Source: an uncultured Lachnospiraceae bacterium (GTDB taxonomy: Bacteria > Bacillota > Clostridia > Lachnospirales > Lachnospiraceae). Taken from it: a stretch of 47,979 nt of DNA. A program made the position numbers and the translations under genes. This document shows, one piece after another, positions 6,360-43,200 of the stretch. Location of the stretch: positions 1 through 47,979 of the forward strand of contig OMUU01000027.1 in the NCBI GenBank assembly GCA_900314295.1, read 5' to 3'. Each line of letters begins with the position of its first letter. Within the stretch, counting starts at the first letter, position 1. The notes under the pieces are model-generated. The model saw only the letters and a list, made by a program, of their open reading frames with translations, was not told the DNA's origin and did no database searches.

Positions 6360-6389
6360 AGAGGATTTTGATAGAAAGGGACGATGTAT

Positions 6390-7394
6390 ATGCCGGTTAC
6401 TGACATTGGAATTGATCTTGGAACGGCGTCGATCATTGTGTATGTAAAGGGTAAGGGGATCCTGTATCAGGAGCCTTCGGTTGTGGCCTATGACAGGGAT
6501 GCAAATAAAATTCTGGCGTTCGGGACAGAAGCGGCTCAGTGCATCGGGAGAATGCCCGGAAATATCGTCGGGATACGTCCGCTGAAGGACGGCGTGATTT
6601 CGGATTTTGTTGTCACGGAACGGATGCTGCGGTATTTCATCCGGAAATCCATGGGAAACTGGAATATTCTGAAGCCGCGGATCTGCATCTGTGTGCCGAG
6701 CGGCGTCTCGGATATTGAGAAAAGAGCGGTGGAGGAGGCTTCCTACCGGGCAGGCGCCCGAGATGCCGTGATTGTCCGGGAGCCGATCGTGGCGGCAATG
6801 GGAGCGGGTGTGGATATCATGCGTGCGAGCGGCAGCATGATCGTCAATATCGGGGGCGGCGTCAGCGAAATCGCGGTTCTGTCGCTGGGCGGGATTGTGA
6901 TTGCACAGTCGATCCGGACAGGCGGAGAAGCCTTTGACGAGGCGATTTGTCAGTATGTTCATGATGTCTACGGTCTCATTATAGGAAGTCAGACGGCGGA
7001 GGATATCAAGATTCAGATCGGATCGGCTAATCCGGGCACGGCCTTGAGAGAGGTTTCGGTCACAGGGCGGGACGTGGACGCGGGGTTCCCGCGGACGATC
7101 AGCATTACCTCGGATCAGGTGAGGGAGGCTGTTGCCCCTGCAGTGCGCCGGATCATAGAGACAATCCGCATTGTGATGGAGAAGACGCCGCCGGATCTTG
7201 CGGCGGATATTGCAAAGCGGGGAATTGTACTGACCGGCGGAGGCGCTATGCTGGAAGGGCTGGAAGGCGAGATCGCTAAGGCGACGGGGATCCGGACACT
7301 TCTGGCGGATAATCCGCAGCAGGCGGTTGCGGTCGGGACGGGACGGTATATCCGGGCAATGGCGGATTTTGACAAGCAAAAGAGTTACCGCTGA
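6390..7394 (+). CDS. mreB: MreB/Mbl-family actin-like cell-shape protein
   Basis: Bacterial actin that forms membrane-bound filaments guiding lateral wall synthesis, about 334 aa. The phosphate-1 motif is DIGIDLGTASIIVYVKGKG at the N-terminus and the phosphate-2 motif is IVNIGGGVSEIAVLSLGG near residue 155; GIVLTGGGAMLEGL is the adenosine motif. Two ATG codons are possible (6384, 6390); AAAGGG at 6375-6380 is better spaced for 6390. No mreC or mreD follows, so this may be an Mbl or MreBH-type paralogue; MreB, Mbl and MreBH cannot be told apart by eye. recD2 follows within 30 bp. Confidence 0.92.
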   Translation: MPVTDIGIDLGTASIIVYVKGKGILYQEPSVVAYDRDANKILAFGTEAAQCIGRMPGNIVGIRPLKDGVISDFVVTERMLRYFIRKSMGNWNILKPRICICVPSGVSDIEKRAVEEASYRAGARDAVIVREPIVAAMGAGVDIMRASGSMIVNIGGGVSEIAVLSLGGIVIAQSIRTGGEAFDEAICQYVHDVYGLIIGSQTAEDIKIQIGSANPGTALREVSVTGRDVDAGFPRTISITSDQVREAVAPAVRRIIETIRIVMEKTPPDLAADIAKRGIVLTGGGAMLEGLEGEIAKATGIRTLLADNPQQAVAVGTGRYIRAMADFDKQKSYR

Positions 7395-7423
7395 GACCCG
7401 GAAGTGATCATTTGGAGATGAGC

Positions 7424-9667: not shown

Positions 9668-9669
9668 AA

Positions 9670-10416
9670 ATGAACCGGGAGAGATGGGCAGGCAGTCGGA
9701 TACGGGCTGGAAAAATTGCAGAACTGATTTATCCGCGGCACTGTCCGTTCTGCGACTGCCTTCTCTCGGGATCTGAGCCGTATCTATGCAGAAAATGCGC
9801 CGCGAGTGTGAAGTTCATAAGCGGACCGGTCTGCATGAAGTGCGGGCGGCCTCTGGAATCGGATACCATGGAATTCTGCGATAATTGCCGAAGAAGGGAG
9901 CATTCCTTTCTTCGAGGCTTTGCGCCGTTGACCTATCGCGGTATGGTACAGGATTCGATTACTCGTTTCAAGTACGGAAACAGGGCGGAGTACGCGGCGT
10001 TTTATTCGGCGGCAATTTTGAAATATGGAAGAGCTCATCTGGAGCAATGGAGACCGGAACGGATCGTGCCTGTTCCGATTCATCCGGACCGGTATCGGAA
10101 AAGAGGATATAATCAGGCGGAGGAAGTGGCGCTGCATCTGTCGCGGCAACTCGGAATCCCCTGCAGTTCGCATGAGATTTTCCGGCAAAAGAATACCAGA
10201 CCGCAAAAAGGTCTGACACCCTCGATGCGGAGGAAAAATCTGTCGGGCGCGTTTGCGGCGAAGGATGGGATCCGGCTGCCGGAGCGGGTACTCCTGGTGG
10301 ACGATATTTACACTACGGGGGCAACGTTAGATGCGCTCGCGGAGACGGCGGCGGAAGCAGGGGCGAAAAAAATCTGGTTTGCGTGTATTTCGATAGCGCC
10401 CGGGCAGAGTATCTGA
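9670..10416 (+). CDS. comF: ComF family phosphoribosyltransferase-like protein
   Basis: 248 aa protein of the ComF/GntX family. The N-terminal third has zinc-ribbon cysteine pairs (CPFC...CRKC...CMKCGRP...CDNC), and the C-terminal half is a type I phosphoribosyltransferase domain with the PRPP loop VLLVDDIYTTGAT. In naturally competent bacteria ComFC helps DNA uptake or processing; in most Clostridia the biochemical role is unknown. It lies directly behind recD2, two bases after its stop, which ties it to DNA metabolism. No competence genes are in view. The assignment to the family is firm, the role is not. Confidence 0.93.
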   Translation: MNRERWAGSRIRAGKIAELIYPRHCPFCDCLLSGSEPYLCRKCAASVKFISGPVCMKCGRPLESDTMEFCDNCRRREHSFLRGFAPLTYRGMVQDSITRFKYGNRAEYAAFYSAAILKYGRAHLEQWRPERIVPVPIHPDRYRKRGYNQAEEVALHLSRQLGIPCSSHEIFRQKNTRPQKGLTPSMRRKNLSGAFAAKDGIRLPERVLLVDDIYTTGATLDALAETAAEAGAKKIWFACISIAPGQSI

Positions 10417-10423
10417 TAATTAC

Positions 10424-10452
10424 TTTCCATGAATTCGGAAGTATGTTAGAAT
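10424..10452 (+). promoter_or_regulatory. Candidate promoter for the cdaA operon leader
   Basis: TTTCCA (10424-10429) and TAGAAT (10447-10452) are 17 bp apart. Transcription would begin around 10459, almost exactly at the first base of repeat element C (10461), so the element would be the 5' end of the transcript. Confidence 0.45.
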
Positions 10453-10460
10453 AAGGTACT

Positions 10461-10638
10461 GTATAAGTCCAGTCGCATGACAGAGACGGACTGCACACCT
10501 ATAGGGTGTGCAAGTCCGGCTATGGCTTTGCGACGACAACAGGTATGAGCATGGAGCGGTGTGAAACACCGCGGGAATGCGAATACCTGTTAGCGGCACG
10601 AAAGCTGCGAAGCAGCGAAGTGCCGCGGGGACTTATAC
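10461..10638 (+). repeat. Repeat element C, full-length copy (C1)
   Basis: A 178-bp element bounded by perfect 10-bp inverted repeats, GTATAAGTCC (10461-10470) and GGACTTATAC (10629-10638). Inside are further stems that I can pair by eye: GTCGCA with TGCGAC; a long hairpin CGGACT-GCACACC / GGGTGTGC-A-AGTCCG with loop TATA; AACAGGTAT with ATACCTGTT enclosing GCGGTGT-GAA-ACACCGC; and GCGGCAC / GTGCCGC enclosing GCTGC-GAA-GCAGC. Together they make a branched, four-way-junction-like RNA. No protein coding is evident. A second copy (C2) lies at 40720-40848. I do not recognise it as a named RNA family; it could be a MITE-like element or a structured leader RNA. Confidence 0.75.
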
Positions 10639-10655
10639 AGAGTCAATACGTAAAC

Positions 10656-10730
10656 AGCTCTTCGAAAACGCAGAAGGGCCCGCCTGTCGCAAAGCGCGCG
10701 TAAGAGGCTTTTGCGATTTCGAAGGCAACA
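10656..10730 (-). repeat. Repeat element A, copy 1 (inverted)
   Basis: Minus-strand copy of the A palindrome: GCTCTTCGAAAACGC on the left pairs imperfectly with GCGATTTCGAAGGC on the right around a GC-rich centre. It lacks the left-arm extension seen in copies 2 and 3. It starts 17 bp after element C1, the same spacing as at the trp locus. A T-run (10740-10747) lies shortly after it. Confidence 0.75.
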
Positions 10731-10774
10731 GGTAATAATATTTTTTTAGAAATTTACAGGTAGAGGACAGGAAA

Positions 10775-11212
10775 ATGATTGACAAGAAGAGGCTGTATCT
10801 GATGATCGGTCTGGCGAGATTCGAGAAGAAACACGCGGACGGATCTTTCCGGATCAGCCGGTATTATCAGAACGACTACACGGCGTTTGCCCTTATTCGG
10901 AATCTGCTGCTGAGCACGATTGCATACATTCTGCTGCTGGGCGTACTGTTGCTGGCAAATATGGATACGTTTTTTGCTCGGCTGAATTCCGCGGATCTCC
11001 GTCCTGTGATCGCGGTGCTGATTGTCAGCTATATTATTTTTGTGGGCATCTATTCCGTTATCGCCTATATCCTGGCGCGGATCCGTTATGTGCGCATGCA
11101 GAGCGACATGGAGGAATACGAGCGGGCTCTCGCGAGGCTGGGACGTATGTATCGGCGCGGATACCATGAGGAAAGCGGAGAACGCGAAGGGCAGGAGGAA
11201 GAAGAAAAATGA
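10775..11212 (+). CDS. Small membrane protein of unknown function
   Basis: 145 aa; not recognised. The N-terminal 45 residues are charged and soluble-looking, followed by two hydrophobic segments (about residues 43-65, rich in Leu, and 77-100, rich in Ile/Val) and a basic-acidic C-terminal tail ending in EGQEEEEEK-like residues. The start ATG has AGAGGACAGG upstream. Its last bases overlap the next gene by 4 bp (ATGA), so the two are translationally coupled. With the 407-aa membrane protein and cdaA/cdaR it forms an apparent operon led by elements C1 and A1. A membrane partner for the c-di-AMP module is a guess from position only. Confidence 0.8.
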   Translation: MIDKKRLYLMIGLARFEKKHADGSFRISRYYQNDYTAFALIRNLLLSTIAYILLLGVLLLANMDTFFARLNSADLRPVIAVLIVSYIIFVGIYSVIAYILARIRYVRMQSDMEEYERALARLGRMYRRGYHEESGEREGQEEEEK

Positions 11213-29887: not shown

Positions 29888-31840
29888 ATGGAGGATCTGA
29901 AAGTAAAATATCTGCAGCGGCTGGCGGAGCTGTATCCGACCATTGCCGCCGCGTCTACAGAGATCATAAACCTGGAAGCGATCCGGAATCTTCCGAAAGG
30001 CACGGAGCATTTTCTCACGGATATTCACGGAGAGTATGAGGCCTTTACGCATGTGCTGAAGAACGGATCCGGTTCCGTCAAGAAGAAGATTGACGAGGTG
30101 TTCGGGCGCACGCTGAGCGAGTCGGATAAGAGCGCTCTTGCTACATTGATCTATTATCCGAATGAAAAAATCGCTCTCGTTCGGCAGCAGGAAAAAAACA
30201 TGGATGACTGGTACAAAATTACCCTGTATCGGCTAATCGAAATCTGTAAAAAAGCGTCATCGAAATATACGAGATCGAAGGTGCGCAAGGAGCTTCCGAA
30301 GGATTACGCATATGTGATTGAGGAGCTGATCACGGAGAAGCCGGATGTTCTGGACAAGGAAGCGTACTACAATTCCATTGTTGACACGATTATTGACATT
30401 CAGAGAGCAGAGGATTTCATTGTGGCGCTTTGCCACCTGATTCAGCAGCTGGTCGTGGATCACCTTCATATTCTGGGCGATATCTATGACCGGGGTCCGG
30501 GTCCGGAGCGAATCATGGACCGGCTGATGAATTATCACTCGCTGGATATCTGCTGGGGCAACCATGACATTGTCTGGATGGGTGCCGCGGCCGGATCCCT
30601 TCCGTGTATCGCAACGGTCCTCAGGATCTGCGCGAGGTACGGGAATCTGGATATTCTGGAGGACGGATACGGCATCAATATGATTCCGCTAGCTACCTTT
30701 GCTTCCAGAGTTTATGGGGATGACCCGTGTACGCTTTTTAAGCTGAAGGGTGAGAATTGCACGAGACTTCCGAATGAGAATGAGCTGAACATGCGGATGC
30801 ATAAGGCTATCTCCATCATCCAGTTCAAGCTGGAGGGACAGCTTTTCCGGGAACGTCCGGAGTTTCAGATGCAGGACAGGATGCTGCTAGATAAGATTGA
30901 TTATGAAAGAGGAGTTATACGACTGGGCGAAAAGGAATATACGCTTCTGGATCATAATTTTCCGACGATCGATCCGGCGGATCCGTACCGTCTGACGGAG
31001 GACGAGATGGAAGTGATGGAGCGCATGCAGCGGGCCTTTACGCAGTGTGAAAAGCTCTATCAGCACATGAATCTTCTCCTGAACAAGGGCAAGCTGTACT
31101 TTATCTATAACGACAATCTCCTCTATCACGGCTGTATCCCGCTGACCGAGGACGGCGATTTTTTGCAGGTGGATGTCTATGGAAAGAAGTTCTGTGGAAG
31201 GGCGCTTTACGACGAGCTCGAAAAATATGTCCGCAAGGCGTTTTTCGCGGTAGACGAAGAAGAGCGGAAGAAAGGGCGCGATATCATCTACTGGATCTGG
31301 TGCAGCCCGCAGTCCCCGCTGTTTGGAAAAGATAAAATGGCCACCTTTGAACGATATTTCATCCGCGAGAAGGAAACGCATGTGGAGAAGAAAAATCCAT
31401 ACTACCGTCTTCTGGACAACGAAGAGGTCATGGACCGTGTACTTGCAGAGTTCGGGCTTGGGTCCGACGCGCATATTGTGAACGGACATGTTCCGGTTAT
31501 GCAGAGCTCCGGGGAGAGCCCGGTAAAATGCGGCGGTAAGGTGCTGATTATCGACGGCGGTTTTTCCAAGGCGTATCAGGGAAAAACGGGGATTGCCGGT
31601 TATACCCTCATCTACAATTCGTATGGGATGCAGCTCGTGGCACTGAAGCCTTTTACCTCAACGGAGGACGCTGTGCGCAACGAGACGGATATCCACGGCG
31701 AAAAAATCATGGTCATGAACGCGCCGCACAGGCTGCATGTCAGCGACACCGATATCGGGCGTCGGCTGAAGGAAAGAATCGATGAGCTGAAGGAGCTTCT
31801 GGAGGCGTATCGAAGCGGCGCGATCAATGAGATTGTTTAA
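29888..31840 (+). CDS. fbp: Fructose-1,6-bisphosphatase class III
   Basis: 650 aa FBPase of the Firmicutes type (class III), a metallophosphatase-fold enzyme removing the 1-phosphate from fructose 1,6-bisphosphate for gluconeogenesis. Metal-binding motifs are DIHGEYEAF near residue 46, GDIYDRGP and WGNHDIVWMG, and later NGHVPV. Length and composition are as in the family. GAGGAGGG lies seven bases before ATG 29888. With pckA in the same window it makes two gluconeogenic steps, but they are not one operon. Its 3' end runs into repeat A3. Confidence 0.95.
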   Translation: MEDLKVKYLQRLAELYPTIAAASTEIINLEAIRNLPKGTEHFLTDIHGEYEAFTHVLKNGSGSVKKKIDEVFGRTLSESDKSALATLIYYPNEKIALVRQQEKNMDDWYKITLYRLIEICKKASSKYTRSKVRKELPKDYAYVIEELITEKPDVLDKEAYYNSIVDTIIDIQRAEDFIVALCHLIQQLVVDHLHILGDIYDRGPGPERIMDRLMNYHSLDICWGNHDIVWMGAAAGSLPCIATVLRICARYGNLDILEDGYGINMIPLATFASRVYGDDPCTLFKLKGENCTRLPNENELNMRMHKAISIIQFKLEGQLFRERPEFQMQDRMLLDKIDYERGVIRLGEKEYTLLDHNFPTIDPADPYRLTEDEMEVMERMQRAFTQCEKLYQHMNLLLNKGKLYFIYNDNLLYHGCIPLTEDGDFLQVDVYGKKFCGRALYDELEKYVRKAFFAVDEEERKKGRDIIYWIWCSPQSPLFGKDKMATFERYFIREKETHVEKKNPYYRLLDNEEVMDRVLAEFGLGSDAHIVNGHVPVMQSSGESPVKCGGKVLIIDGGFSKAYQGKTGIAGYTLIYNSYGMQLVALKPFTSTEDAVRNETDIHGEKIMVMNAPHRLHVSDTDIGRRLKERIDELKELLEAYRSGAINEIV

Positions 31841-31842
31841 AA

Positions 31843-31967
31843 AAGCATTCGCACTTTCGTGCCGCATACGCGTCCCTTCGTGCTCATGCTTGTTGCCTTC
31901 GAAATCGCAAAGGTCCCTTACGCGCGCTTCGCGTGCGACGGACCCTTTGGCGTTTTCGAAGAGCTTA
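31843..31967 (+). repeat. Repeat element A, copy 3
   Basis: Full-length forward copy with left-arm extension (GCATTCGCACTTTCGTGCC...) and core CCTTCGAAATCGCAAAGGTCC ... GGACC-type right arm ending in TTTTCGAAGAGC (core 31897-31963). It lies between the convergent fbp and the minus-strand PLP gene and supplies the latter's TAA stop (31965-31967). Confidence 0.85.
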
Positions 31968-33077
31968 TACATTCACATCTGTGCGGAGCTGGGTGAGAAG
32001 GCGGTCATTGTCGTCCGGATTCATGAAGCAGAACCGGAAGTATTTGTTGGAGAGGAAGGGGAAGGTGGAGCAGTTGCGGATCATGAGCCCCTTCCGGATG
32101 CAGTGGTCGAAGAGAATGTCCGCGTCCATATCCTCGCGAAGAATCCGGACGAGGATGAAGTTAGCCTTCGGCTGATATACCTTGACGGAATCCCAGGTCA
32201 TAAGCTCCCGGTAGATCCTGGTGCGTTCGGTATCAATCAGATTCCTGGTTTTGTTGATGTATTCGGTATCGCTGAACATCAGCCTTCCGGCGACCTCGGC
32301 GATAGAGCTGATGGACCAGGGGTTCTGCAGGGAGATCACCTTTCGGATCAGGTCGGTATTGCCGGTGATGGCGTAGCCGAGGCGAAGGCCCGGCGCCGCG
32401 AAGAATTTTGAAGTTCCTCTCAGAACGACGATGTTTGTATACGATTCGGTAAGTGGAACGGAGGAAATCCTCTCGTCCGCGTGCGTAAATTCAACATATG
32501 TCTCATCCACCATCACAAAAATGCCGTGTACCATGCAGGCATCCAGGATGGTGCGCATCTTGTCGTTTGAGATGGCGGTAGAGGTCGGATTGTTCGGATT
32601 ACACAGAATGAGGAGATCAAGGTCGTCCGTAAGATGGCGGCAAAGATCGGCTGGATTCAGCTGAAAATCTTCCTCTTCTTTCAGAGGATAGTAGACGGTC
32701 TGACCGCCTCTCAGAGATATTTCTCTTTCATACTCGGAATAAGAGGGCCCGAGAATCATAGCCTTTTTCGGCGCATCGGCCTGGATCATCAGGGAGATGA
32801 GCTCTGTGGAGCCGTTACCGACGATGACGTTTTCGTAGGTGGTTCCCGCATATTCCGCGATAACCTTCCGAAGATCCTTGTATTCCCGGTCGGGATAGGT
32901 CTGAATAACGTCGATATGCTCGCTGATAGATTCCCTGAGATTGCCGGAGATTCCGAGCGGATTGATGTTCGCAGAAAAGCTTGTGATCTTTTCCTTCGGG
33001 ATATGATAGATTTCTTCTATTTTTTCCAGATCGCTTCCATGAAAATGATCCTTATGCTTCAGGGTAAACTGAGCCAT
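31965..33077 (-). CDS. PLP-dependent aminotransferase-fold enzyme, CobD/HisC-like
   Basis: 370 aa, aminotransferase class I/II fold. SANINPLG near residue 35-42, the CNPNNPT motif near 159-165 and the PLP-lysine site TSKFFAAPGLRLGY with Lys224 are characteristic of the histidinol-phosphate aminotransferase / threonine-phosphate decarboxylase (CobD) group; NxNPLG and the KFFAxPGLRLGY form favour CobD. No cobalamin or histidine genes are adjacent, so the substrate is open. A GTG at 33086 is also in frame, but GAGGTG is spaced for ATG at 33077. It is the only complete minus-strand gene and is bracketed by repeats A3 and A4. Confidence 0.88.
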   Translation of the reverse strand: MAQFTLKHKDHFHGSDLEKIEEIYHIPKEKITSFSANINPLGISGNLRESISEHIDVIQTYPDREYKDLRKVIAEYAGTTYENVIVGNGSTELISLMIQADAPKKAMILGPSYSEYEREISLRGGQTVYYPLKEEEDFQLNPADLCRHLTDDLDLLILCNPNNPTSTAISNDKMRTILDACMVHGIFVMVDETYVEFTHADERISSVPLTESYTNIVVLRGTSKFFAAPGLRLGYAITGNTDLIRKVISLQNPWSISSIAEVAGRLMFSDTEYINKTRNLIDTERTRIYRELMTWDSVKVYQPKANFILVRILREDMDADILFDHCIRKGLMIRNCSTFPFLSNKYFRFCFMNPDDNDRLLTQLRTDVNV

Positions 33078-33120
33078 ATTTGACACCTCGATTTCTAAGT
33101 ATTGTATAGATTACAGTCCT

Positions 33121-33198
33121 GCTGCCTTCGAAATAGCAAAAGTCTCTTACGTGCGCTACACGTGCGACGAGCCCTTCTGCGTTTTCGAAGAGCTTACA
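33121..33198 (+). repeat. Repeat element A, copy 4
   Basis: Core-only forward copy, CCTTCGAAATAGC ... GCGTTTTCGAAGAGC, in the gap between divergent genes. The left-arm extension is absent. Confidence 0.75.
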
Positions 33199-33276
33199 GT
33201 AAATCGTAGCCGTTTTAGTGCGTGCATGATCAATAACTGCGCAGGTGAACGGATCTCACGAGCGCCGGTCAGAACA

Positions 33277-33305
33277 TTGCGCAGGTCCTGCATATGTTGT
33301 ATACT
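33277..33305 (+). promoter_or_regulatory. Candidate promoter for the DUF5717 operon
   Basis: TTGCGC (33277-33282), 17-bp spacer, TATACT (33300-33305). The leader would be about 160 nt and contains a hairpin around GAGACTCCGAATTGGTCTC (33318-33336). Confidence 0.5.
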
Positions 33306-33473
33306 GCAATGTGGATGAGACTCCGAATTGGTCTCGTTCGGAACTAAGTGTAATTCGAATGCGGGTATTCGTCAAGCTTCCGTGTAGTCTCCGGATCAGG
33401 GAGTCGGGGACGCAATTTTCCGGAAAATGTTCGGAAAAGGTGACGGCATGACGCAGGGCCGCTTTAGGATAAG

Positions 33474-36400
33474 GTGGGAGTATTGAAGAATAAGGACAGA
33501 ATAATAGAGGCCGGGTTCGTATATGATCTTCCGAAGCTGGTTTTTTCTGAAGAGGAATATCGCATTGTAGTGGGTGAGGGTGAGGTCCGCAGAGGGACGT
33601 TTCATGTCCGGGCTTCGGATGGCAGTACGATCCGGGGAAGTGTGCTGTCGGAAGACTACAGGATCCATCTGCTGACGACGGAATTCGAGGGCAAGGATTG
33701 TGAGATCGGTTTTCTTGTGATAACCAAAGGATTGCTCACCGGTCAGAGTGTACGCGGGAGTATCCTGGTGAGCAGCAATATTGCCGAAAAAGAATTCTCT
33801 GTGTATGCGGAGATTGTGGATATACCGGGACAGGGTGAGGAGCCGGAGATACGGACGCTGGATGATTTCTCAAGGCTTTGTCAGAAGAGCCTTCGTGAGG
33901 GATTTCTGATGTTCACAGATCCGGGGTTTTCAAGAATCCTGAACGGCAACAACCGGCAGTATCTGGGACTTTACCGTGGGATGTCGCACAATCCGGTCAC
34001 CTATCAGCATCTCGAGGAATTTCTGGTTTCGACAGGCAAGAAGGAGCCGATCGAGATTACGCTGGACAAGCAGCAGAAGGCGGTTTACCACCTGGATGTG
34101 TCCCAGAAGGACACGCTCTATGTCTACCGGAACGTATGGGGATATATCCGGCTTGAGGTAGAGGTAGAGGGTGACTTCCTCGAGGTGACGAAGAAGGTGA
34201 TTACTACCGAGGATTTCATTGGGAAGGTATACGGGCTGGAATATATCGTTCACAGCGACAGACTCGGAGAGGGAAAGTCCTTTGGGAAAATCCGGATTCG
34301 CAGCGTTCACCAGGATCTGGAGTACACCGTTGAGGCATCCCGCAAAGAGGAGTCGGAGATCCTTCCGTCTGCGGTACGAAGCAGAAAGATTGCCTGGCTG
34401 ATGAGGGATTTTCTGGGCCTTCAGCTTCACACGCTGGATTATCGAAGCTGGCTGGAGTCGTCTTCGATGACGGTGCATGAGATGCTCGAGGAGAATCCTG
34501 ACGACTCGGCGGCTATTCTTTATGCCGCTTATCTGGAATTTTCCAGAGATGACAACGGAAAGGCGATGGAGCGGCTTTGGCCGATCAAAGATGGAAAGGT
34601 TACTCCTGCGAACAGTGAGGAAAAGGGAATCTACCTTTCGCTCGCGAAGGAGGTGGGACTGCTTCCGGAGGAAAAACGCGATATTCTCCCGCTTCTTATG
34701 AAATACTACCGGAAGAATCCGGGAAGCTATCTTCTGCTGAAGCTCTGTCATCAGGAGGAGAACGGGGAGATTGTAAATTCGGCGGACCGTATGCAGGAGT
34801 ACGAGGACTGCTTCAATGCCGGATGCATGAGCCCGTTTCTGTACCTGGACGCCTGGAATCTCCTGGCGCGTGAGGAGTCTCTGCTCCGCAGGCTTTCACC
34901 ATTTATGATCCAGGTTCTGAATTTCGGTCTGAAGCACGATTTTATCACGGAAGGGCTGCTACAGAGAACCGCTTTTCTGAGCGATAACGAAAAGAACTTC
35001 AATCGGCCGGTGTATCGGATTCTCTCCACCGGATACAAGAAATATCCAAATGATGCTGTTGTTGAAGCAATATGCAAGCTGCTGATCAAGGGAAATCCGG
35101 TGGATCCGTGCTGTTTCCCCTGGTATGAGAAGGCGGTGCTTCATGATCTGCGTATTACAAGGCTCTATGAATATTATATGGAGACGTATCACAAGCCGGC
35201 GAGCGAGAGACTCCCGCAGCAGATCCTGATGTATTTTGCGACGAACACGGAGCTTGCGGAGAAGAAGCGTGCGCTCCTGTATGCGAGCATCGTGCTGAAC
35301 CGCGAGGAGGACGACACCAGCTTTCTGAACTACGGCCGCTACATTCGGACCTTTGCGATGGAGTCTCTTCGCAAGGGACGGATGAACGAGAATTACGCAG
35401 TGCTTTACCGGCAATTTTTCCGTAAACCGGATTCTCCGGAGATCGCGGAGCTGCTGGGAAATGTTCTGTTTGTGCATAAGGTCACGGTTTCGGACCCGAT
35501 GGTGCGGCAGGTGGTTGTGAGCCACTACGCGCTGAAGGAGGAGGAAGTCGCGATGGTGAAAGACGGGGTGGCTTACCCCAGGATCTACACCGATGACGCC
35601 GCTGTTCTCATGGAGGATGTGCATCATCGCCGATATGCGACGACTGTTCCCTTTGAAGTGACCGGGCTCATGGATTCCCGGGAAAGTGCACATGCTATTC
35701 TGGAACAGGGTGTGAGCCATCCGGGAGCGGAGCTTTCCATCTGCCGGGAGAAGGCGTTTCAGATGGACGTTAACAGCCGTACTGTTTCTGCCTATCGGAT
35801 GGCGGTTACGGAGGATGCGTTTACGGATGAGTATCGCCGAACTCTGCGCAGAAAGCTTCTGGAGTATGATATGGCGCATCCCGATGAGGGACTTCTTCCC
35901 AGGAATATGAGCGAGGAGGAAATCAACCGCTATGCGGAGGCAGATAAGGTCAGTACGATCGTGCTGCTGATCCGTGAGGGCCGTTATGAAGAAGCTTTTC
36001 ATGTGATATCGGAATTCGGATGTGAGGGTGTGCCCACCAGGCTTCTGCTTCGTTTATCCAGCCGCCTGATCCTCGGAGGGGGAGAGGACGGAGAGAAGCT
36101 TTTGCAGCTGACCGAGTACGTATTCAAAAAGGAAAAATATGACGAGGTTATGCTGAGCTATCTTCGGGATCATTACCGGGGATCTGTCCGGAATCTGTGC
36201 AGATTATGGAGGAGACTGAAGGGATTTCAGCTGGAAACGCTCCGTCTGGACGAGCGGATTTTGCTGCAGTCGATCCGTACGCATCAGTTCCCGGACGACG
36301 AGGCAAAGATTTTGGAAGATTATATCCGTCAGCAGGGAAGACCGGAGGTAACGGCGGCGTTTCTCGCGTATCTGTCGGATTATTATTTCCTTGGGGGACG

Positions 36401-37022
36401 TGGAATTTCCGGTCCGGTGTTTGTCCTCATGGAGAATGCAATGGACCGCGGAGAACTGGATTATACGATCTGTAAGCTTGCTCTTTTACAGTATTATTCG
36501 ACGAAGGATGAATTGGACGATGGGCGAATGGAAAGAGCGGGCGCTATGTTGAAGCAGATGGATGAAAAGGGTCTTCGTTTTGAATTTTATCAGAAGCTTC
36601 CGAAGCGGTTGATTCAGGCATATCAGATCGAGGACAAGGTGTTTGTTCAGGACCAGTTCCAGCCAGACAGCCGGGTGATTCTTCATTACCAGCTGACCGA
36701 ACAGGACGGCGGACAGTCGGAGTGGATCAGCGAGCCGATGAAGAATGTCTACAATGGCATCTTTGTGAAGGAGTTTCTGCTGTTTTACGGCGAGACTCTG
36801 CGCTATTACATGAGCGTTATGAAAGATGGAAAAATAACGGATTCTGATACGTATGAGGTCTCTCTCGTGGATATGGATACGTCCGGGACGACGAAATTCC
36901 GGCTGCTTAATCGCATGCTGGAAGCACGGGATCAGGGCGATGACGAAAAACTGCGGGAAGCAGAGAAACAGTATCTGCGACAGGATAATTTTGTCAGGCA
37001 GTTCCTGAAGCTGATGAATTGA
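33474..37022 (+). CDS. DUF5717 family protein, large solenoid-like scaffold of unknown function
   Basis: 1182 aa. I assign the DUF5717 name from memory of Lachnospiraceae annotation. About the first 230 residues look like two to three beta-sandwich domains (alternating V/I-rich strands, for example SVLSEDYRIHLLTTEFEG). The long middle is helical and resembles a TPR-like or HEAT-like solenoid (LYAAYLEFSRDDNGKAMERL, YEEAFHVISEFG). The end has another beta domain (RVILHYQL..., LRYYMSVMKDGK) and a short helical tail. No signal peptide, membrane helix or enzymatic motif is seen. The start may be GTG 33474 or TTG 33483. It is followed after 10 bp by DUF5716. Confidence 0.85.
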   Translation: MGVLKNKDRIIEAGFVYDLPKLVFSEEEYRIVVGEGEVRRGTFHVRASDGSTIRGSVLSEDYRIHLLTTEFEGKDCEIGFLVITKGLLTGQSVRGSILVSSNIAEKEFSVYAEIVDIPGQGEEPEIRTLDDFSRLCQKSLREGFLMFTDPGFSRILNGNNRQYLGLYRGMSHNPVTYQHLEEFLVSTGKKEPIEITLDKQQKAVYHLDVSQKDTLYVYRNVWGYIRLEVEVEGDFLEVTKKVITTEDFIGKVYGLEYIVHSDRLGEGKSFGKIRIRSVHQDLEYTVEASRKEESEILPSAVRSRKIAWLMRDFLGLQLHTLDYRSWLESSSMTVHEMLEENPDDSAAILYAAYLEFSRDDNGKAMERLWPIKDGKVTPANSEEKGIYLSLAKEVGLLPEEKRDILPLLMKYYRKNPGSYLLLKLCHQEENGEIVNSADRMQEYEDCFNAGCMSPFLYLDAWNLLAREESLLRRLSPFMIQVLNFGLKHDFITEGLLQRTAFLSDNEKNFNRPVYRILSTGYKKYPNDAVVEAICKLLIKGNPVDPCCFPWYEKAVLHDLRITRLYEYYMETYHKPASERLPQQILMYFATNTELAEKKRALLYASIVLNREEDDTSFLNYGRYIRTFAMESLRKGRMNENYAVLYRQFFRKPDSPEIAELLGNVLFVHKVTVSDPMVRQVVVSHYALKEEEVAMVKDGVAYPRIYTDDAAVLMEDVHHRRYATTVPFEVTGLMDSRESAHAILEQGVSHPGAELSICREKAFQMDVNSRTVSAYRMAVTEDAFTDEYRRTLRRKLLEYDMAHPDEGLLPRNMSEEEINRYAEADKVSTIVLLIREGRYEEAFHVISEFGCEGVPTRLLLRLSSRLILGGGEDGEKLLQLTEYVFKKEKYDEVMLSYLRDHYRGSVRNLCRLWRRLKGFQLETLRLDERILLQSIRTHQFPDDEAKILEDYIRQQGRPEVTAAFLAYLSDYYFLGGRGISGPVFVLMENAMDRGELDYTICKLALLQYYSTKDELDDGRMERAGAMLKQMDEKGLRFEFYQKLPKRLIQAYQIEDKVFVQDQFQPDSRVILHYQLTEQDGGQSEWISEPMKNVYNGIFVKEFLLFYGETLRYYMSVMKDGKITDSDTYEVSLVDMDTSGTTKFRLLNRMLEARDQGDDEKLREAEKQYLRQDNFVRQFLKLMN

Positions 37023-37032
37023 GGAGGTGCGG

Positions 37033-38202
37033 ATGAGCGCAAGAGAACTGATTGTAGGGATAGATCTTAACCGAAATCAGCCGCAGATCTGTTACTATGA
37101 GCGAGAAAAAGAAAACACGGTTACAGCGCCGATGAAGGTCGGGAACGATATGGTTTCCTTCCGTGAGATTCTCGACGGGGTTGAAAATCTGGTTCATGAT
37201 TTTCCGGACGAGAAGGAACGGGAGCGAAGGAGGGATGAGCTGGAGGAGACGGCCGCAGAGACGATGCGCAAGGCGCTTTATACTCTGGGCCTGAATGATC
37301 CGGGATCACAGATCGTCGGAATTACGATAACGGTTCCTGTCCTGACCCGTCCGATCGTACATCTGGTCAAATCCATCTACCGGCAGCTGGGACTTGCAAA
37401 GGCCCGCGCTTTTCTTCAGGATTACAAGGAAAGCTGCTTTTACCATACGATTTATCAGAAGAGGGAGCTCTGGAACCGGAATGTCGGGTTCTTTATCTTT
37501 GAGGGAGAGAAGGTTTCTTTTCTGTCCATGAGCATGAATCCGCAGACAAGACCGGTGACCTTTACGATGGAGGACGGAATCACAATCAGTCTGAAGGAGG
37601 ACCGGAGCCTTTGGGATGAGCAGTTCTATAATATGATCAACGCTTCTCTCCGGCAGAACATGTATTCTTGCATTTTTCTGATGGGAGATACGTTTGACCG
37701 GTCCTGGGCGGGGCGCTCCATTGCACTGCTTTGCCGGGCGGGGCGGAAGGTTTTTGTGGTCGATAATCTCTATGCGAGAGGCGCGTGCTACACGGCGCAG
37801 GAGAAGGTCGTCCAGAGAAAGTTCCCGGACTGTCTGTATCTCGGGGATGAAATCATCCGCAACAATATCGGAATGAAGATGTACCTTCAGGGGAGAGAAA
37901 CCTATTATCCGTTGATCGCCGCGGGAGTAAACTGGTATGAGGCGGATAAGATCTGTGAGTGTATTTTGATCGGCAAAGAGCATGAGCTGCGGTTTCTGAT
38001 CAGTCGTATGGATGAAAAGGATCAGAAGGTATCGGTAATGGAGCTGCCGGAGCTTGACGACCGTCCGGACGGGACGACCCGTCTGCGGATTCATTTGTCG
38101 TGCGAATCTTCGAAGCGCTGCGTGATTGAAGTTGAGGATCTGGGATTCGGAGATATGTATCCGGCGACCGGAAAAGTCTGGCGGGAAATTCTGGAGGAGT
38201 GA
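37033..38202 (+). CDS. DUF5716 family protein with a degenerate actin/Hsp70-like fold
   Basis: 389 aa. The name DUF5716 is from memory. Its layout follows the Hsp70/actin ATPase fold but with altered nucleotide motifs: ELIVGIDLNRNQPQICYYE at the start (phosphate-1 place), ITITVPVLTRPIVHLVKSIY near residue 97 (compare Hsp70 ITVPAYF), an FFIFEGEKVSFLSM strand pair where phosphate-2 (DLGGGT) would be, and CIFLMGDTFDRSW...YARGACYTA where Hsp70 has GG(S/T)..GAA. The canonical GGG and GT residues are gone, so ATPase activity is doubtful. ATG 37033 has GAGGAGGTG before it. It overlaps nothing but is tightly packed with DUF5717 and the TPR gene. Confidence 0.85.
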   Translation: MSARELIVGIDLNRNQPQICYYEREKENTVTAPMKVGNDMVSFREILDGVENLVHDFPDEKERERRRDELEETAAETMRKALYTLGLNDPGSQIVGITITVPVLTRPIVHLVKSIYRQLGLAKARAFLQDYKESCFYHTIYQKRELWNRNVGFFIFEGEKVSFLSMSMNPQTRPVTFTMEDGITISLKEDRSLWDEQFYNMINASLRQNMYSCIFLMGDTFDRSWAGRSIALLCRAGRKVFVVDNLYARGACYTAQEKVVQRKFPDCLYLGDEIIRNNIGMKMYLQGRETYYPLIAAGVNWYEADKICECILIGKEHELRFLISRMDEKDQKVSVMELPELDDRPDGTTRLRIHLSCESSKRCVIEVEDLGFGDMYPATGKVWREILEE

Positions 38203-38207
38203 AACAA

Positions 38208-38981
38208 ATGAGCATGGCTGTGTTGTGTCAGGTGAAGAGGGCGGACCATCCTTTTTATATCCGCGACATTGATCTGAATATTTACTCGATTGAGGAGCTC
38301 TGCTATTTTGTAGATCATAATCTAGCTCTGGTTGAAGAGGATTTCTTTGACGATGCTCTGATCGGATGGATCGGAGAGGAGCTTCAGGATCACAATTTTG
38401 TTCGGACGCTGGAGAGAATCCGGAAGGAGGGCGTACAGCCGCTTGGAAGAATGCTGCATGCTCTGAATGCTGAGACCGGATGGATCTATGTGCAGGACCG
38501 GGAGGCATTTGAGAAAACGCTTGACGGCAACCGGAAGCTTCCCGGACCGGAAAGACTGCGCCTGCGGGCTGATTCGCTGGTAGGTTACGGAAAATACACG
38601 AAGGCGATCGAGGAGTACAAGAGAATTCTTGGAATGGAAGATCTGGAGGGGCTCGGCGAACAGTTTCTGGGCACGGTGTACAACAATATGGGGGTCACCT
38701 ATGCCAGGTTGTTTGAGATGGATGAGGCGATCAATTGTCTGAGAAAGGCCTATGACAGCATTCACTCCAGAGAGGCTCTCAGGAATTATCTCTGCGCCGT
38801 TTACCTTGCGAGAGGGACAGAAGGTTTTGAAAACTCTGCTGATGAGCTGAAGGCGGATAAAGAGACCAGAGAGACCCTGCTTTCCGAGATCAAGGATAGG
38901 AAACTACCGGAGCCTGAGGGGGATATTAATTCCCTGCTTGGCGAATGGGTCCGCGAGTACCACAGGGAAACCGCGAGGTAA
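38208..38981 (+). CDS. TPR-like protein, third gene of the DUF5717/DUF5716 module
   Basis: 257 aa; not recognised beyond TPR-like repeats. The N-terminal 100 residues (SIEELCYFVDHNLALVEEDF, DDALIGWIGEEL) form a helical unknown domain. Residues about 115-195 contain TPR-like helix pairs with typical G-Y-A/N-N-G-Y signatures (YGKYTKAIEEYKRIL, NNMGVTYARLFEMDEAINCL). No membrane segment or signal peptide is seen. GGAGGAG at 38193-38199 is spaced for ATG 38208; a GTG at 38199 overlapping the previous stop is less likely. It ends the operon, followed by the palindromic repeat array. Confidence 0.85.
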   Translation: MSMAVLCQVKRADHPFYIRDIDLNIYSIEELCYFVDHNLALVEEDFFDDALIGWIGEELQDHNFVRTLERIRKEGVQPLGRMLHALNAETGWIYVQDREAFEKTLDGNRKLPGPERLRLRADSLVGYGKYTKAIEEYKRILGMEDLEGLGEQFLGTVYNNMGVTYARLFEMDEAINCLRKAYDSIHSREALRNYLCAVYLARGTEGFENSADELKADKETRETLLSEIKDRKLPEPEGDINSLLGEWVREYHRETAR

Positions 38982-39006
38982 CAGAGAACTCGAAGGTATT
39001 ATATTT

Positions 39007-39408
39007 AGCGTCGCCCGGGTCAGACTGTTTGAGAGACAGGCGGGCGACGCAAATCAATCAAATCCAAGCAAATCTTAAAATCGTCGTCTGGTCCAGGACC
39101 GTATGAGGCTCGCCAGGCGACGCAAATCAAGCGAATCTCTAAATCGTCGCTTGCTTCAGGGTATATGAAGCTTGTCTGGCGGCGGAAAACAAGCAAATCA
39201 CAAAATCGTCGCTTAGTTCAAGGTACATGAGCAGGAGTCAGGCGACGCAAATCAAACAAATCTCAAATTCGTCGCTTGCTTCAGGGTATATGAAGCTTGT
39301 CGGGCGGCGGAAATCAAACAAATCACAAAATCGTCGCCCGGTTCAGGGAACATGAAGCTTGTCAGGCGACGGGAATCAGGCAAATTATAAAATCGTCGCA
39401 TGTTTTAG
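39007..39408 (+). repeat. Tandem array of about 62-63-bp palindromic units
   Basis: Units begin at TCGTCGC and recur at 39081, 39144, 39206, 39269, 39331 and 39393 (last one partial), spaced 62-63 bp; a first diverged unit begins at 39007. Each unit pairs its ends (CGTCGC... with ...GCGACG) and holds an inner stem (CTTCA/TGAAG), then an AAATCAAACAAATC-like spacer. Unit 1 has a perfect 10-bp stem, GCGTCGCCCG/CGGGCGACGC. The whole period is conserved, so this is not a CRISPR array. It stands between the TPR gene and a nuclease-like gene. Confidence 0.85.
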
Positions 39409-39435
39409 AAAAGAGGATAAGAGGAAGGAGAAGGT

Positions 39436-40318
39436 ATGGAACGTGAAAGAATGGATCAATATCTGTATGCAAGTGAAGAACTATATGCTTGGATTTTAAA
39501 ACGTGCGGACGCTTTAAAAAAGGTAATAGATTAAAAAAGAAAAGGATCTTGCAAAGTACCAGGCAAAGCTTCCGCCGGTAAAGATTAAAGCGTCTGCAGA
39601 TGGAAAAAATCACGCTAGAGAACAATTTTATTGGCGGAAGAGCGCTGACGAAAAAACCGGAACGTATCTTAAAAAGACGCCGGAGAACATAAAATTTATT
39701 AAGATGATGATTCAAAAAGAATATGATCAGAAACTGCTGAAAGCAGCCAATAATGAGTATAAGTATTTGCTGGGCGGGAAACGCTTCTGCATGATGGATT
39801 CTTTTGAGAAAGCATATGATTCCATGGGTGCGGTGAAGCAAAAATGGGTCTCTCCTGCTTTTGTAAGCGATGAACAATATGAGGAAGAATGGCTTCGGCA
39901 ATCCTTTTCTGATGCGGGATATAAGAGCGAGAACAAAGTCTATAAAACAAAACAGGGGGAAGAAGTCAGATCAAAATCGGAACTAATCATTGCAAATGCA
40001 CTTTTCGAAAAAAAGATTCCATATCGCTATGAGTATCCACTGACAGATTCAGGACGGATATGGGCAGTGCCGGATTTTACGGTTTTAAACGTCTGTGAGC
40101 GGAAGGAGTACTATTGGGAACATTTTGGAATGATGGGAGATCCGGAATATGCAAGAAATACGATGAAGAAGATTCGAAGTTATGAAAAGCATCATATGTT
40201 TCCCGGAAACGAAGTTATCTATACGTTTGAGTCAGATGAGGTTCAAATTAACGTAGAAAGCATAGAAGATATTATTGTAACATATTTTGGAAGAAAATAC
40301 CGTCCGAACCTGGACTGA
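39436..40318 (+). pseudogene. Frameshifted PD-(D/E)XK nuclease-like gene
   Basis: The reading frame starts at ATG 39436 with AAGGAG before it and stops at TAA 39532 after 32 residues; the other part continues in the next frame from 39533 to 40318 (about 261 codons). Removing one base at 39532 restores a 293-aa protein. The C-terminal region looks like a PD-(D/E)XK-type nuclease: SKSELIIANALFEKKIPYRY (Glu codon 39980), VPDFTV (Asp codon 40073), YYWEHFG (Glu codon 40118). The segment is markedly AT-richer than its surroundings, suggesting recent acquisition. Family is from motif likeness only. An internal ATG at 39704 could give a 204-aa product. Confidence 0.6.
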
Positions 40319-40359
40319 AAAGTTCATGTTACACAGTATAAATATCTCGGAAAGTTTTC

Positions 40360-40388
40360 TTGACAGAAGCTGTGAAACGTGGTTTAAT
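40360..40388 (+). promoter_or_regulatory. Promoter of the trp operon
   Basis: Perfect TTGACA (40360-40365), 17-bp spacer, TTTAAT (40383-40388). Transcription would start near 40395, at the head of the T-box leader. Confidence 0.8.
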
Positions 40389-40394
40389 ATCAAC

Positions 40395-40718
40395 ATAATT
40401 TAAGACTACATCAGTTTAAACCGTTGAAGTGGAGATAAAGCGGATGGGGCACTCACAGAGAGTCCGGGGAGGTGTGAGCCGGGCAGGACGCTGATCTGTA
40501 AATGGACCACTGAGGGCAGGGTGAAAGTATAGGATGAACACCGCAGGTGATCATGGTACGAGTAGCTTCTGACGCAGGGCATACGTTACATGCCGGAGAT
40601 ATGATGGTATCTCATGAGTGTGTGGAGACACAAATACAAGGTGGCACCGCGGGAATCGAAGCTGTACGATTATACCCGCCCTTGACAGAAGAAAATCTGT
40701 CATGGGCGGGTATCTTAA
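40395..40718 (+). promoter_or_regulatory. Tryptophan T-box riboswitch
   Basis: A T-box leader ahead of trpE. The specifier loop reads AAATGGACC with codon TGG (Trp) at 40503-40505. Stem I shows the AGAGAGTCC motif (40455 onwards) and the GTGTGAGCC region; then come a stem II-like hairpin (GGGCATACGTTACATGCC) and stem III (GAGATAT...ATGGTATCTC); then the T-box AAGGTGGCACCGCGG (about 40639-40651). Uncharged tRNA-Trp would pair with TGG and the T-box bulge, stabilise the antiterminator and let the operon be read. Everything fits a classical Trp T-box; only one unit is present. Confidence 0.92.
40671..40717 (+). terminator. T-box terminator hairpin
   Basis: ATACCCGCCC..TTGACAGA / TCTGTCA..GGGCGGGTAT with loop AGAAAA. 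The stem is long and strong, but the sequence after it is TATCTTAATG, not a clean T-run; element C2 begins at 40720. Confidence 0.8.
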
Positions 40719-40719
40719 T

Positions 40720-40848
40720 GTATAAGTCCAGTCGCATGACAGAGACGGACTGCACACCTGTAGGGTGTGCAGGTCCGGCTATGGCTTTGCGAATACCTGT
40801 TAGCGGCACGAAAGCTGCGAAGCAGCGAAGTGACGCGGGGACTTATAC
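40720..40848 (+). repeat. Repeat element C, deleted copy (C2) in the trp leader
   Basis: Same terminal repeats as C1, GTATAAGTCC (40720-40729) and GGACTTATAC (40839-40848). A 49-bp segment is missing relative to C1, apparently lost between two TGCG repeats; this removes the third stem. The other stems persist with a few changes. It starts two to three bases after the T-box terminator stem. Confidence 0.8.
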
Positions 40849-40865
40849 TGTAACAAAACGAAATC

Positions 40866-40986
40866 AGCTCTTCGAAAACGCAGAAGGACTCGTCGCACGC
40901 GAAAGAACTTAGGACTCTTCGAAAACGCAGACAAACCGTATGTTGCGAAACATGTGTAAGAGAATGAAGTGACGCGTATGCGGTTT
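40866..40986 (-). repeat. Repeat element A, rearranged copy 5
   Basis: Two truncated, inverted A halves. The first (40866-40905) runs AGCTCTTCGAAAACGCAGAAGG and breaks at the centre. The second (40915-40986) restarts with CTCTTCGAAAACGC and ends in GACGCGTATGCGG, the left-arm extension of copies 2 and 3. It starts 17 bp after C2, as A1 does after C1. Confidence 0.7.
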
Positions 40987-41016
40987 CAGGAAACTTCAGG
41001 ATACGGAGGAAATGTT

Positions 41017-42486
41017 ATGAAGCAGACATCGTTCGAGGAAGTGAAGAAGATTGCAGCATCCGGCGATTATAAGCGAATTCCGGTGACAAGGGAGATTCTC
41101 TCCGACATCCGCACACCGGTGGAAACTCTGAGAGCACTGCAGAATGTCAGCAGCCACTGCTTTCTCCTGGAGAGTGTGGAGGACAGCCGGCAGTGGGGCA
41201 GATACACGTTTCTCGGATTTGATCCGTCCATGGAAATTTCGTGCAAGGATCATGTCCTTACCGTAAATGCCGGCGGCAGAATCCGGATGGAAACCGCCCA
41301 TCCGGGAATCTACATCAAGCAGATTATCCACGAGAACAGATCGCCGCGGATTCCGGGACTTCCCACGCTGACAGGAGGGCTCGTCGGTTATTTTTCCTAC
41401 GATTACATTCAGTATGGTGAGCCGGAGCTGAAGCTGGACGCGCCGGATGAAGACAGGTTTGATGACGTAAATCTGATGCTGTTTGACAAACTGATCTGTT
41501 ACGATAACTTCCGTCAGAAGATCGTCCTGATTGTCAATATCCATACGGAGTGCATGGAGACCGATTACAACAAGGCTGTTATTCAACTGGATGAGATGGA
41601 AAACATCATCCGGAACGGAAAGCCGAAGAATGTGCCTGTGGGGCATCTGCTTGAGCCGCTGAAGCCGAAGCTTTCTCTGGAGGAGTTCTCGGAAAAGGTT
41701 GAGAAAATAAAGCATTACATCCGCGAGGGAGATATTTTTCAGCTTGTTTTCTCGAATCCCATGAAGGCGGCGTATGAAGGCAGCCTCCTGAATACCTACC
41801 GCGTTCTCAGAACGACAAATCCGTCACCGTACATGTTTTATTTTTCGGGGGATGATGTGGAAATCGCAGGAGCTTCTCCGGAAACGCTCGTAAAGGTGGA
41901 AAACGGGGTAATCCGGACCTTCCCCCTGGCGGGAACAAGGCCGAGAGGACGGGATGACCAGGAGGATCAGCGTCTGGAGAAGGAGCTTTTGTCCGATGAA
42001 AAAGAGCGTGCGGAGCATAATATGCTGGTGGATCTTGGACGAAATGATCTCGGCAGACTGTGCAAATTCGGGACAGTGGAAGTTGAAAAATATATGTGTA
42101 TTGAAAAATACTCGCATGTCATGCACATCGGATCGGCTGTAAAGGGGGAGCTTCGCGATGACAGGCAGGCCATCGATGCCGTAGACTCCGTGCTGCCGGC
42201 GGGAACGCTCTCGGGAGCTCCGAAGTTCCGCGCATGTGAACTGATCAATGAGCTGGAGAATGACAGAAGAGGAATTTACGGCGGCGCAGTCGGATATGTT
42301 GATTTTACGGGGAATCTGGATGTGTGCATCGCGATTCGTCTGGCATATAAGCGGAATGGGAAGGTATTCGTTCGTTCGGGCGCCGGGATCGTCGCGGACA
42401 GTGTTCCGGAGAAGGAATATCAGGAATGCCGGAATAAAGCGAGAGCCGTGGTGGAAGCTCTTAAGAAAGCGGAGGAAGAAGAATGA
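41017..42486 (+). CDS. trpE: Anthranilate synthase component I
   Basis: 489 aa chorismate-binding subunit. With TrpG it makes anthranilate from chorismate and glutamine, the first committed step to tryptophan. The tryptophan feedback motif LLES is present at residues 50-53, followed by RYTFLGFDP. The C-terminal chorismate domain shows IREGDIFQLVFSNP, SPETLVKVENG, RPRGRDDQED and AGAGIVADSVPEKEY. The ATG 41017 with ACGGAGGAAA before it is chosen over an in-frame ATG at 40969, which lies inside repeat A5. It overlaps trpG by 4 bp (ATGA). Confidence 0.97.
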   Translation: MKQTSFEEVKKIAASGDYKRIPVTREILSDIRTPVETLRALQNVSSHCFLLESVEDSRQWGRYTFLGFDPSMEISCKDHVLTVNAGGRIRMETAHPGIYIKQIIHENRSPRIPGLPTLTGGLVGYFSYDYIQYGEPELKLDAPDEDRFDDVNLMLFDKLICYDNFRQKIVLIVNIHTECMETDYNKAVIQLDEMENIIRNGKPKNVPVGHLLEPLKPKLSLEEFSEKVEKIKHYIREGDIFQLVFSNPMKAAYEGSLLNTYRVLRTTNPSPYMFYFSGDDVEIAGASPETLVKVENGVIRTFPLAGTRPRGRDDQEDQRLEKELLSDEKERAEHNMLVDLGRNDLGRLCKFGTVEVEKYMCIEKYSHVMHIGSAVKGELRDDRQAIDAVDSVLPAGTLSGAPKFRACELINELENDRRGIYGGAVGYVDFTGNLDVCIAIRLAYKRNGKVFVRSGAGIVADSVPEKEYQECRNKARAVVEALKKAEEEE

Positions 42487-43082: not shown

Positions 43083-43094
43083 AAGAAATACATT

Positions 43095-43200
43095 GAAGAA
43101 TAGAAGCATCAGAGAATAGGAGCATTCAAGAATAGAGGCATCAAAGAATAGAAACCTTCAAGAATAGAGGCATCAAAGAACGGAAGAAATTCATCGAAGA
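43095..43200 (+). repeat. Degenerate 16-bp tandem repeats in the trpG-trpD gap
   Basis: About six units of the type AGAATAGAGGCATCAA repeat with a period near 16 bp, AT-rich, ending close to the trpD ribosome site. Unlike the rest of the operon, this gap is 151 bp long. No ORF, promoter or terminator is seen. Confidence 0.7.

Follow-up and report, generated by a model that had tools for sequence, protein, structure and literature searches.

The module of three tightly packed genes at positions 33474–38981 of the window (the whole stretch of 47,979 nucleotides analysed here, from an uncultured Lachnospiraceae bacterium) raises the question of what a protein laid out like an Hsp70 chaperone does when the residues of an active ATPase are missing and its neighbours are two large repeat proteins. 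The DUF5717 gene (33474–37022, 1182 amino acids), the DUF5716 gene (37033–38202, 389 amino acids) and the TPR gene (38208–38981, 257 amino acids) are open reading frames on the forward strand, separated by 10 bp (first and second) and 5 bp (second and third) as first described, and GGAGG sites precede the second and third genes. The DUF5717 gene may start at the TTG at 33483 instead of the GTG at 33474. Since the upstream aminotransferase gene lies on the opposite strand, the module needs its own promoter, and a weak promoter-like element, TTGCGC-17-TATACT (33277–33305, forward strand), was read by eye 5′ of it. The earlier proposal of such a promoter is borne out in part: the candidate is found again at the aligned position in one relative (L049) and has a counterpart, TTGCGT-17-TATAAT (by eye), in another (L055), but a third (L050) lacks it at the aligned position, and a consensus promoter scan of 31500–41500 gave no forward-strand site ahead of the DUF5717 gene and a total number of sites not above that of shuffled sequences.

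Repeats were also observed in this region. An interspersed repeat of about 77 bp with partly self-complementary ends occurs at 31891–31967, at 33120–33196 and, on the reverse strand, at 10656–10730; it has 43 matches in its own genome at 78–100% identity, and one of its copies precedes the module. A tandem array of a 62-bp unit (39060–39399, 5.4 copies) lies just 3′ of the module, and a second, short array with a 16-bp step (43091–43186) lies between trp-type genes.

All three genes are plainly under purifying selection: the dN/dS values against L049 and L050, although approximate because synonymous differences are high (0.46–0.60 per site), are 0.054 and 0.051 for the DUF5717 gene, 0.084 and 0.082 for the TPR gene and 0.041 and 0.031, the lowest of the three, for the DUF5716 gene. 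In a Kyte–Doolittle scan no hydrophobic stretch was found in the DUF5717 or the TPR protein and the sole peak of DUF5716 (1.75 at residue 94) falls on its ITITVPV strand, so that all three proteins are read as cytosolic. NCBIfam gave no useful name for any of them.

The nature of the middle protein was addressed through its motifs, a structure model and profile comparisons. GIDLN, ITITVPVLTRP and LMGDTFDRSW...ARGACYTA are present and aligned with Hsp70 sites, and the phosphate-1 GTT and phosphate-2 GGGT motifs are absent, which agrees with the layout and the missing GGG and GT residues pointed out in the preliminary description. The model, built from 63 sequences (mean pLDDT 92.1, pTM 0.87), carries the Hsp70 fold, with a degenerate nucleotide-binding domain (residues ~1–262) and a substrate-binding β-domain (~267–389) at which the chain terminates, leaving no helical lid. 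In a Foldseek search of the PDB, DnaK heads the ranking (7kru, E 8.8e-15) and the best matches are full-length Hsp70s, with TM-scores of about 0.5 and an r.m.s.d. of 9–11 Å, which means that single domains match and not the whole arrangement. The 50 matches listed represent Hsp70, Hsp110 or a complex that contains one of them (7sqc_Z0 being titled only as a ciliary apparatus), and Ssz1 of the yeast ribosome-associated complex (RAC; 6sr6, 3.5e-10) and Hsp110 are among them. Because the substrate-binding β-domain is present, the original label 'actin/Hsp70-like' is narrowed to Hsp70; an actin/MreB filament protein was considered and rejected on the same domain, which is found in the model and in the profile alignment. 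'Decayed', as the protein had also been called, fits the ATPase site but not the gene itself, with its dN/dS of 0.03–0.04.

At the sequence level the link to Hsp70 rests on bridge proteins, since matches of the family by itself are weak. The window protein matches Pfam DUF5716_C (E 5e-93), which alone appears at E up to 1, with no direct match to the HSP70 model; the 63 family sequences alone match DnaK at E 0.0033 over the first 150 positions; and HHalign of the family against Hsp70-D of a larger operon described below gave E 3e-5 and a probability of 73 over 137 columns. The bridge is formed by Hsp70-B of that operon, of which a single chain matches both DUF5716_C (1.8e-25) and HSP70 (1.9e-16) in locus L036; Hsp70-B of L045 also matches both. 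With a profile of 28 sequences (A1; 19 of the DUF5716 family and nine Hsp70-B relatives), positions 9–409 align with DnaK 36–501 at E 1.3e-17, across both domains. The profile leaves about 85 DnaK residues unmatched; these presumably constitute lobe IIB. DUF5716 is an Hsp70 homologue by descent, in reduced form, and we regard this as nearly certain. Its β-domain, with a mean conservation of 2.49 bits versus 2.15 bits for the nucleotide-binding domain, probably still binds a peptide or a partner. Because G9 of phosphate-1 is invariant and the phosphate-1 site is not under-conserved (2.43 bits versus an average of 2.25 bits), some nucleotide binding may, to judge from the alignment, remain; ATP-dependent operation was considered and judged unlikely.

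The two neighbours are as they had been characterized, namely a protein of β domains with a long solenoid and a TPR-like protein. The first matches Pfam DUF5717_N (E 8e-215) and DUF5717 (E 1e-89), and its AlphaFold model (mean pLDDT 87.0, pTM 0.63) consists in the first half of a β domain (22–115), helices (129–186), a further β domain (195–288) and a solenoid (298–665), and in the second half of a β domain (667–731), a solenoid (735–1050), a β domain (1055–1130) and C-terminal helices (1141–1181). Foldseek with DUF5717 returned generic solenoids and β-sandwich proteins only, with whole-chain TM-scores below 0.2. The third protein matches TPR_12 (E 7e-8).

The module belongs to the core of one family. 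PF18980 (DUF5716) was found in all 37 Lachnospiraceae genomes and in 11 of 24 genomes from other families of the order, in 59 of 116 genomes of a second sample of the order and in four of 299 genomes across the phylum, all four being Lachnospiraceae; PF18984 was above the cut-off in ten of 291 genomes of the class, again all Lachnospiraceae. When 200 Lachnospiraceae genomes, one per genus, were surveyed, PF18980 and PF18983 (DUF5717) were each found in 195 and occurred together in 194, which answers the question of co-occurrence for these two genes; both are missing from four genomes (G365, G427, G434 and G464), and the two genomes with only one of them (G035 and G482) are 67% and 68% complete. 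DUF5716 is single-copy in 193 of the 195 genera having the gene, with no internal stop among the matches listed. Among the best 80 of 577 relatives, a choice by which the gene-order sample leans to close kin, the DUF5717 gene lies directly upstream of the DUF5716 gene in 77 loci and a TPR gene lies downstream in all 80; the three loci without an adjacent DUF5717 gene comprise two contig ends and L070. Locus L070 (1–8436) holds DUF5716 and TPR genes with no DUF5717 gene in the 8.4 kb upstream, where an integrase-like reading frame (by eye) is found instead, through either insertion or misassembly. Flanking genes were considered as a functional clue and set aside as uninformative, being variable (the commonest clusters, by eye purine genes and an aminotransferase, occur in 38, 33, 26 and 22 of 81 loci). 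A phage or mobile origin was likewise dismissed, since none of the 42 pattern matches obtained from viral contigs is a DUF5716 relative.

The origin of the module becomes apparent in the other families of the order, in which the 11 genomes with PF18980 provided 12 loci that were read gene by gene. Six of these (L034–L038 and L044) carry, as far as the DNA extends, a larger operon composed of two genes for DUF5717 followed by genes for Hsp70-A, a GrpE-domain protein, Hsp70-B, Hsp70-C, Hsp70-D and a TPR protein, in which Hsp70-A, -C and -D are motif-intact and Hsp70-B is already degenerate; the remaining loci run off the end of a contig, are scattered over several contigs (G040) or exist in reduced form (G051). 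The labels come from a Pfam scan of L036 (ten proteins) with spot checks of L034, L035, L038 and L044, and from the list of open reading frames for the loci beyond these. In these Pfam searches the GrpE domain has E-values of 1.4e-14, 7.1e-11 and 9.1e-13, and a vWA domain is found in Hsp70-D of L036, L038 and L044. In L034 and L036 an extra coiled-coil membrane gene ends the operon and is followed by a tRNA synthetase gene, of the valyl type in L034 (Pfam). These genes do not everywhere form a single operon, since they lie on three contigs amid other genes in G040 and the B and C matches lie on different contigs in several further genomes. In L034, from the genome that most resembles the Lachnospiraceae form, the Hsp70-D and TPR genes are each split over two frames (4860–7384), by decay or assembly error. 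Locus L045 of G051 (5816–10915) holds two DUF5717 genes and a degenerate Hsp70-B, with no TPR gene found and no GrpE or further Hsp70 genes adjoining, and is apparently a second reduced form that arose by a separate reduction.

The other parts of the larger operon were then sought in Lachnospiraceae. A strong match to the GrpE fusion (E 7e-50 or better) was obtained in 11 of the 24 genomes from other families but in 0 of the 37 Lachnospiraceae genomes; four weak GrpE matches (<30 bits, three of them in Lachnospiraceae) adjoin dnaK and were taken as ordinary GrpE. Among the PF00012 matches listed, frames of Hsp70-D length (696–721 amino acids) occur only in nine other-family genomes, and the PF00012 search of the window genome gave two 38-position DnaK-like fragments and MreB, with no motif-intact operon Hsp70. 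That such Hsp70s are kept elsewhere in Lachnospiraceae was also considered and rejected: of 12 further Hsp70 matches taken from ten Lachnospiraceae genomes none groups with Hsp70-A, -C or -D, three grouping with DnaK and nine forming one clade with a protein from G059 (support 0.999), which we take to be HscC-like.

A tree of 66 Hsp70s with local support values, from which the Hsp70-D frame of L034 (198 amino acids) was excluded and in which L034_7381 was grouped as Hsp70-C, placed DUF5716 as a monophyletic group (1.0) that joins Hsp70-B of L034 (0.997). The clade of B, C and DUF5716 has a support of 1.0 and that of B and DUF5716 alone 0.34, so that DUF5716 derives from the B/C side, and its closest relative is most likely B, the fourth and already degenerate Hsp70 of the operon. 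The motifs degrade stepwise, from GID[LF]GTTNS/T (GMDLGTTNT in one case) and D[LFM]GGGT in Hsp70-A, -C and -D (the split Hsp70-D frame of L034 stops before phosphate-2) through forms such as GIDLGN and DFGSRE in Hsp70-B to forms such as GIDLNRNQP and IFEGEKVS in DUF5716. The computations further show that DUF5717 corresponds to the two scaffold genes of the larger operon fused into one, and the TPR protein of the window is related to the TPR protein of about 390 amino acids encoded there (phmmer 3e-12 for L037 and 2e-8 for L036; also L042, L035 and others). The module is a reduced form of a multi-Hsp70 operon and not a stand-alone invention.

A gene for a coiled-coil membrane-hairpin protein accompanies the module in part of the family. 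It was matched in 91 of the 200 genera (~45%; one match, in G028, is weak), with no match in the other 109, including the window genome. All eight proteins scanned have two hydrophobic stretches, between parts that we read as coiled-coil-like. Of 92 places listed, 85 were compared and 84 had a module coordinate, the seven others not being counted; the gene and the module are no more than 4.5 kb apart in 83 of these 84 genomes. In L116–L120 and L122 it is downstream of the TPR gene, and five of the 92 matches listed contain stops, as if the gene were lost in places.

The origin of the module from the larger operon is well supported; as to function, we infer that DUF5716, DUF5717 and the TPR protein form a complex. 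On balance we favour as likely the reading in which the module is a family-wide remnant of the multi-Hsp70 operon and DUF5716, carried by a solenoid scaffold, serves independently of ATP as a subunit that binds clients or acts as an adaptor. DUF5717, with its β domains and solenoid, would be the platform, on which DUF5716 would be seated and would bind a client or partner through its β-domain independently of nucleotide, and the TPR protein would bring in partners; in the ~45% of genera that have it, the hairpin protein may anchor the complex to the membrane. Since the window genome shows no Hsp70 but DnaK, it is DnaK that would have to supply any step driven by ATP, in the manner of the chain hand-over from Ssz1 to Ssb in yeast. 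Such a hand-over of clients to DnaK is a tentative and rather doubtful suggestion by analogy. We would give as little weight to the wider picture of a bacterial counterpart of the Ssz1 relay, in which a nucleotide-free Hsp70 on a solenoid scaffold, membrane-tethered in many genera, might catch clients for DnaK as the leftover of a machine that once included ATP-driven Hsp70s, an exchange factor and a vWA subunit of its own. The cytosolic assembly or chaperone-like complex proposed in the preliminary description is supported, both of the results that it named as refuting (a DUF5716 model lacking the fold, or genes often found apart) having turned out the other way, and the observations behind it are confirmed.

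Other explanations of the same data must be weighed against this adaptor. The module may be purely structural, with a rigid Hsp70 core joining DUF5717 to the TPR protein and a β-domain that binds DUF5717 and not clients; the strong constraint on a protein with no ATPase site, the two large repeat scaffolds and the high-confidence lidless model are all consistent with this. However, conserved positions occur in both domains and the β-domain is on average the more conserved, which suits a binding groove, although this conservation does not distinguish a client from a partner, and we consider the structural reading possible but the less probable one. That DUF5716 is a pseudogene-like, functionless leftover, as its lost ATPase motifs might suggest, is contradicted by a dN/dS of 0.03–0.04, the lowest of the three genes, and by a gene found in 195 of 200 genera and free of internal stops among the matches listed, so that this explanation has a negligible probability.

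The remaining two explanations place the module in a larger system. A membrane-linked role in assembling an envelope or secretion structure, with the cytosolic module docking on the hairpin protein, would account for the hairpin gene beside the module in 83 of the 84 genomes compared and at the end of the larger operon in L034 and L036, but 109 of 200 genera, including that of the window, gave no hairpin match, five of the 92 matches listed contain stops and the flanking genes vary; we regard this as quite unlikely. We also hold it to be improbable that the module is left over from, or a variant form of, the NTP-dependent conflict systems (for immunity or self-killing) with a GAP1-N2 GTPase predicted by Kaur and colleagues, even though HSP70s, GrpE, β domains with TPR, vWA and a membrane-hairpin gene are shared parts in the portion of that work consulted (PMC7159879) and PADLOC candidates are weakly matched by three L036 operon proteins (PDC-M61B, 5.5e-9 and 3.1e-6; PDC-M71B, 2e-9). 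These matches may reflect shared HSP70 and TPR domains only; the Pfam scan gave no GTPase or effector among the ten L036 proteins, PADLOC gave no match for the three window proteins, and the distribution is core and not patchy (195 of 200 genera, 193 single-copy, no viral relative among 42).

Two of the three module genes, annotated as nothing more than DUFs, belong to the core of Lachnospiraceae, a dominant family of gut bacteria. If the favoured reading is true, the entire family runs an Hsp70-derived complex without an ATPase of its own and related families display the ancestral parts list, which would allow a direct comparison of what Hsp70 does without its ATP cycle and would give DUF5716 and DUF5717 a testable function. 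A full-text literature search gave no paper on the module in the text accessible to it, with DUF5716 turning up in PMC8115291, and neither 'Clostridi' nor 'Lachnospir' occurs in the available part of a 2024 survey of DnaK duplication (PMC11019930). The Hsp70 origin of DUF5716 and the larger multi-Hsp70 operon in other families of the order are new.

Among known systems, the window proteins are members of Pfam DUF5716 and DUF5717, both of which Pfam lists as families of unknown function and whose descriptions, as shown, mention neither Hsp70 nor a larger operon. DnaK of the DnaK–GrpE system shares the fold and both domains with DUF5716, whereas the latter lacks the phosphate loops, the IIB lobe and the lid. 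Of published gene neighbourhoods, the closest is found in the HSP70/GrpE theme of the GAP1-N2 systems, some of which, in the part of Kaur et al. (2020) consulted, combine HSP70, GrpE, a second HSP70 without a peptide-binding domain and an FNIII-TPR protein (PMC7159879); the HSP70, the GrpE, the protein of β-repeats and TPR and the occurrence of Firmicutes among the hosts are in common with the larger operon. However, a GTPase is present there and none was found among the ten L036 proteins, their extra HSP70 has no peptide-binding domain whereas DUF5716 retains its β-domain, and DUF5716 is near-universal in one family. Ssz1 would be the nearest working analogy, with no common descent beyond Hsp70 claimed. 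Ssz1, which binds ATP, has a J-protein as its partner on the ribosome, whereas no J-domain was found among the ten L036 proteins (Pfam scan) and DUF5716 additionally lacks lobe IIB. In the available text, Ssz1 is an Hsp70 homologue with a substrate-binding β-domain but without lid or ATP hydrolysis, which hands nascent chains to Ssb and is stably complexed to a partner that serves as scaffold (PMC7083937); DUF5716 likewise has no hydrolysis site and a β-domain without a lid, as seen in its motifs and its model, and a partner of the same kind is predicted for it.
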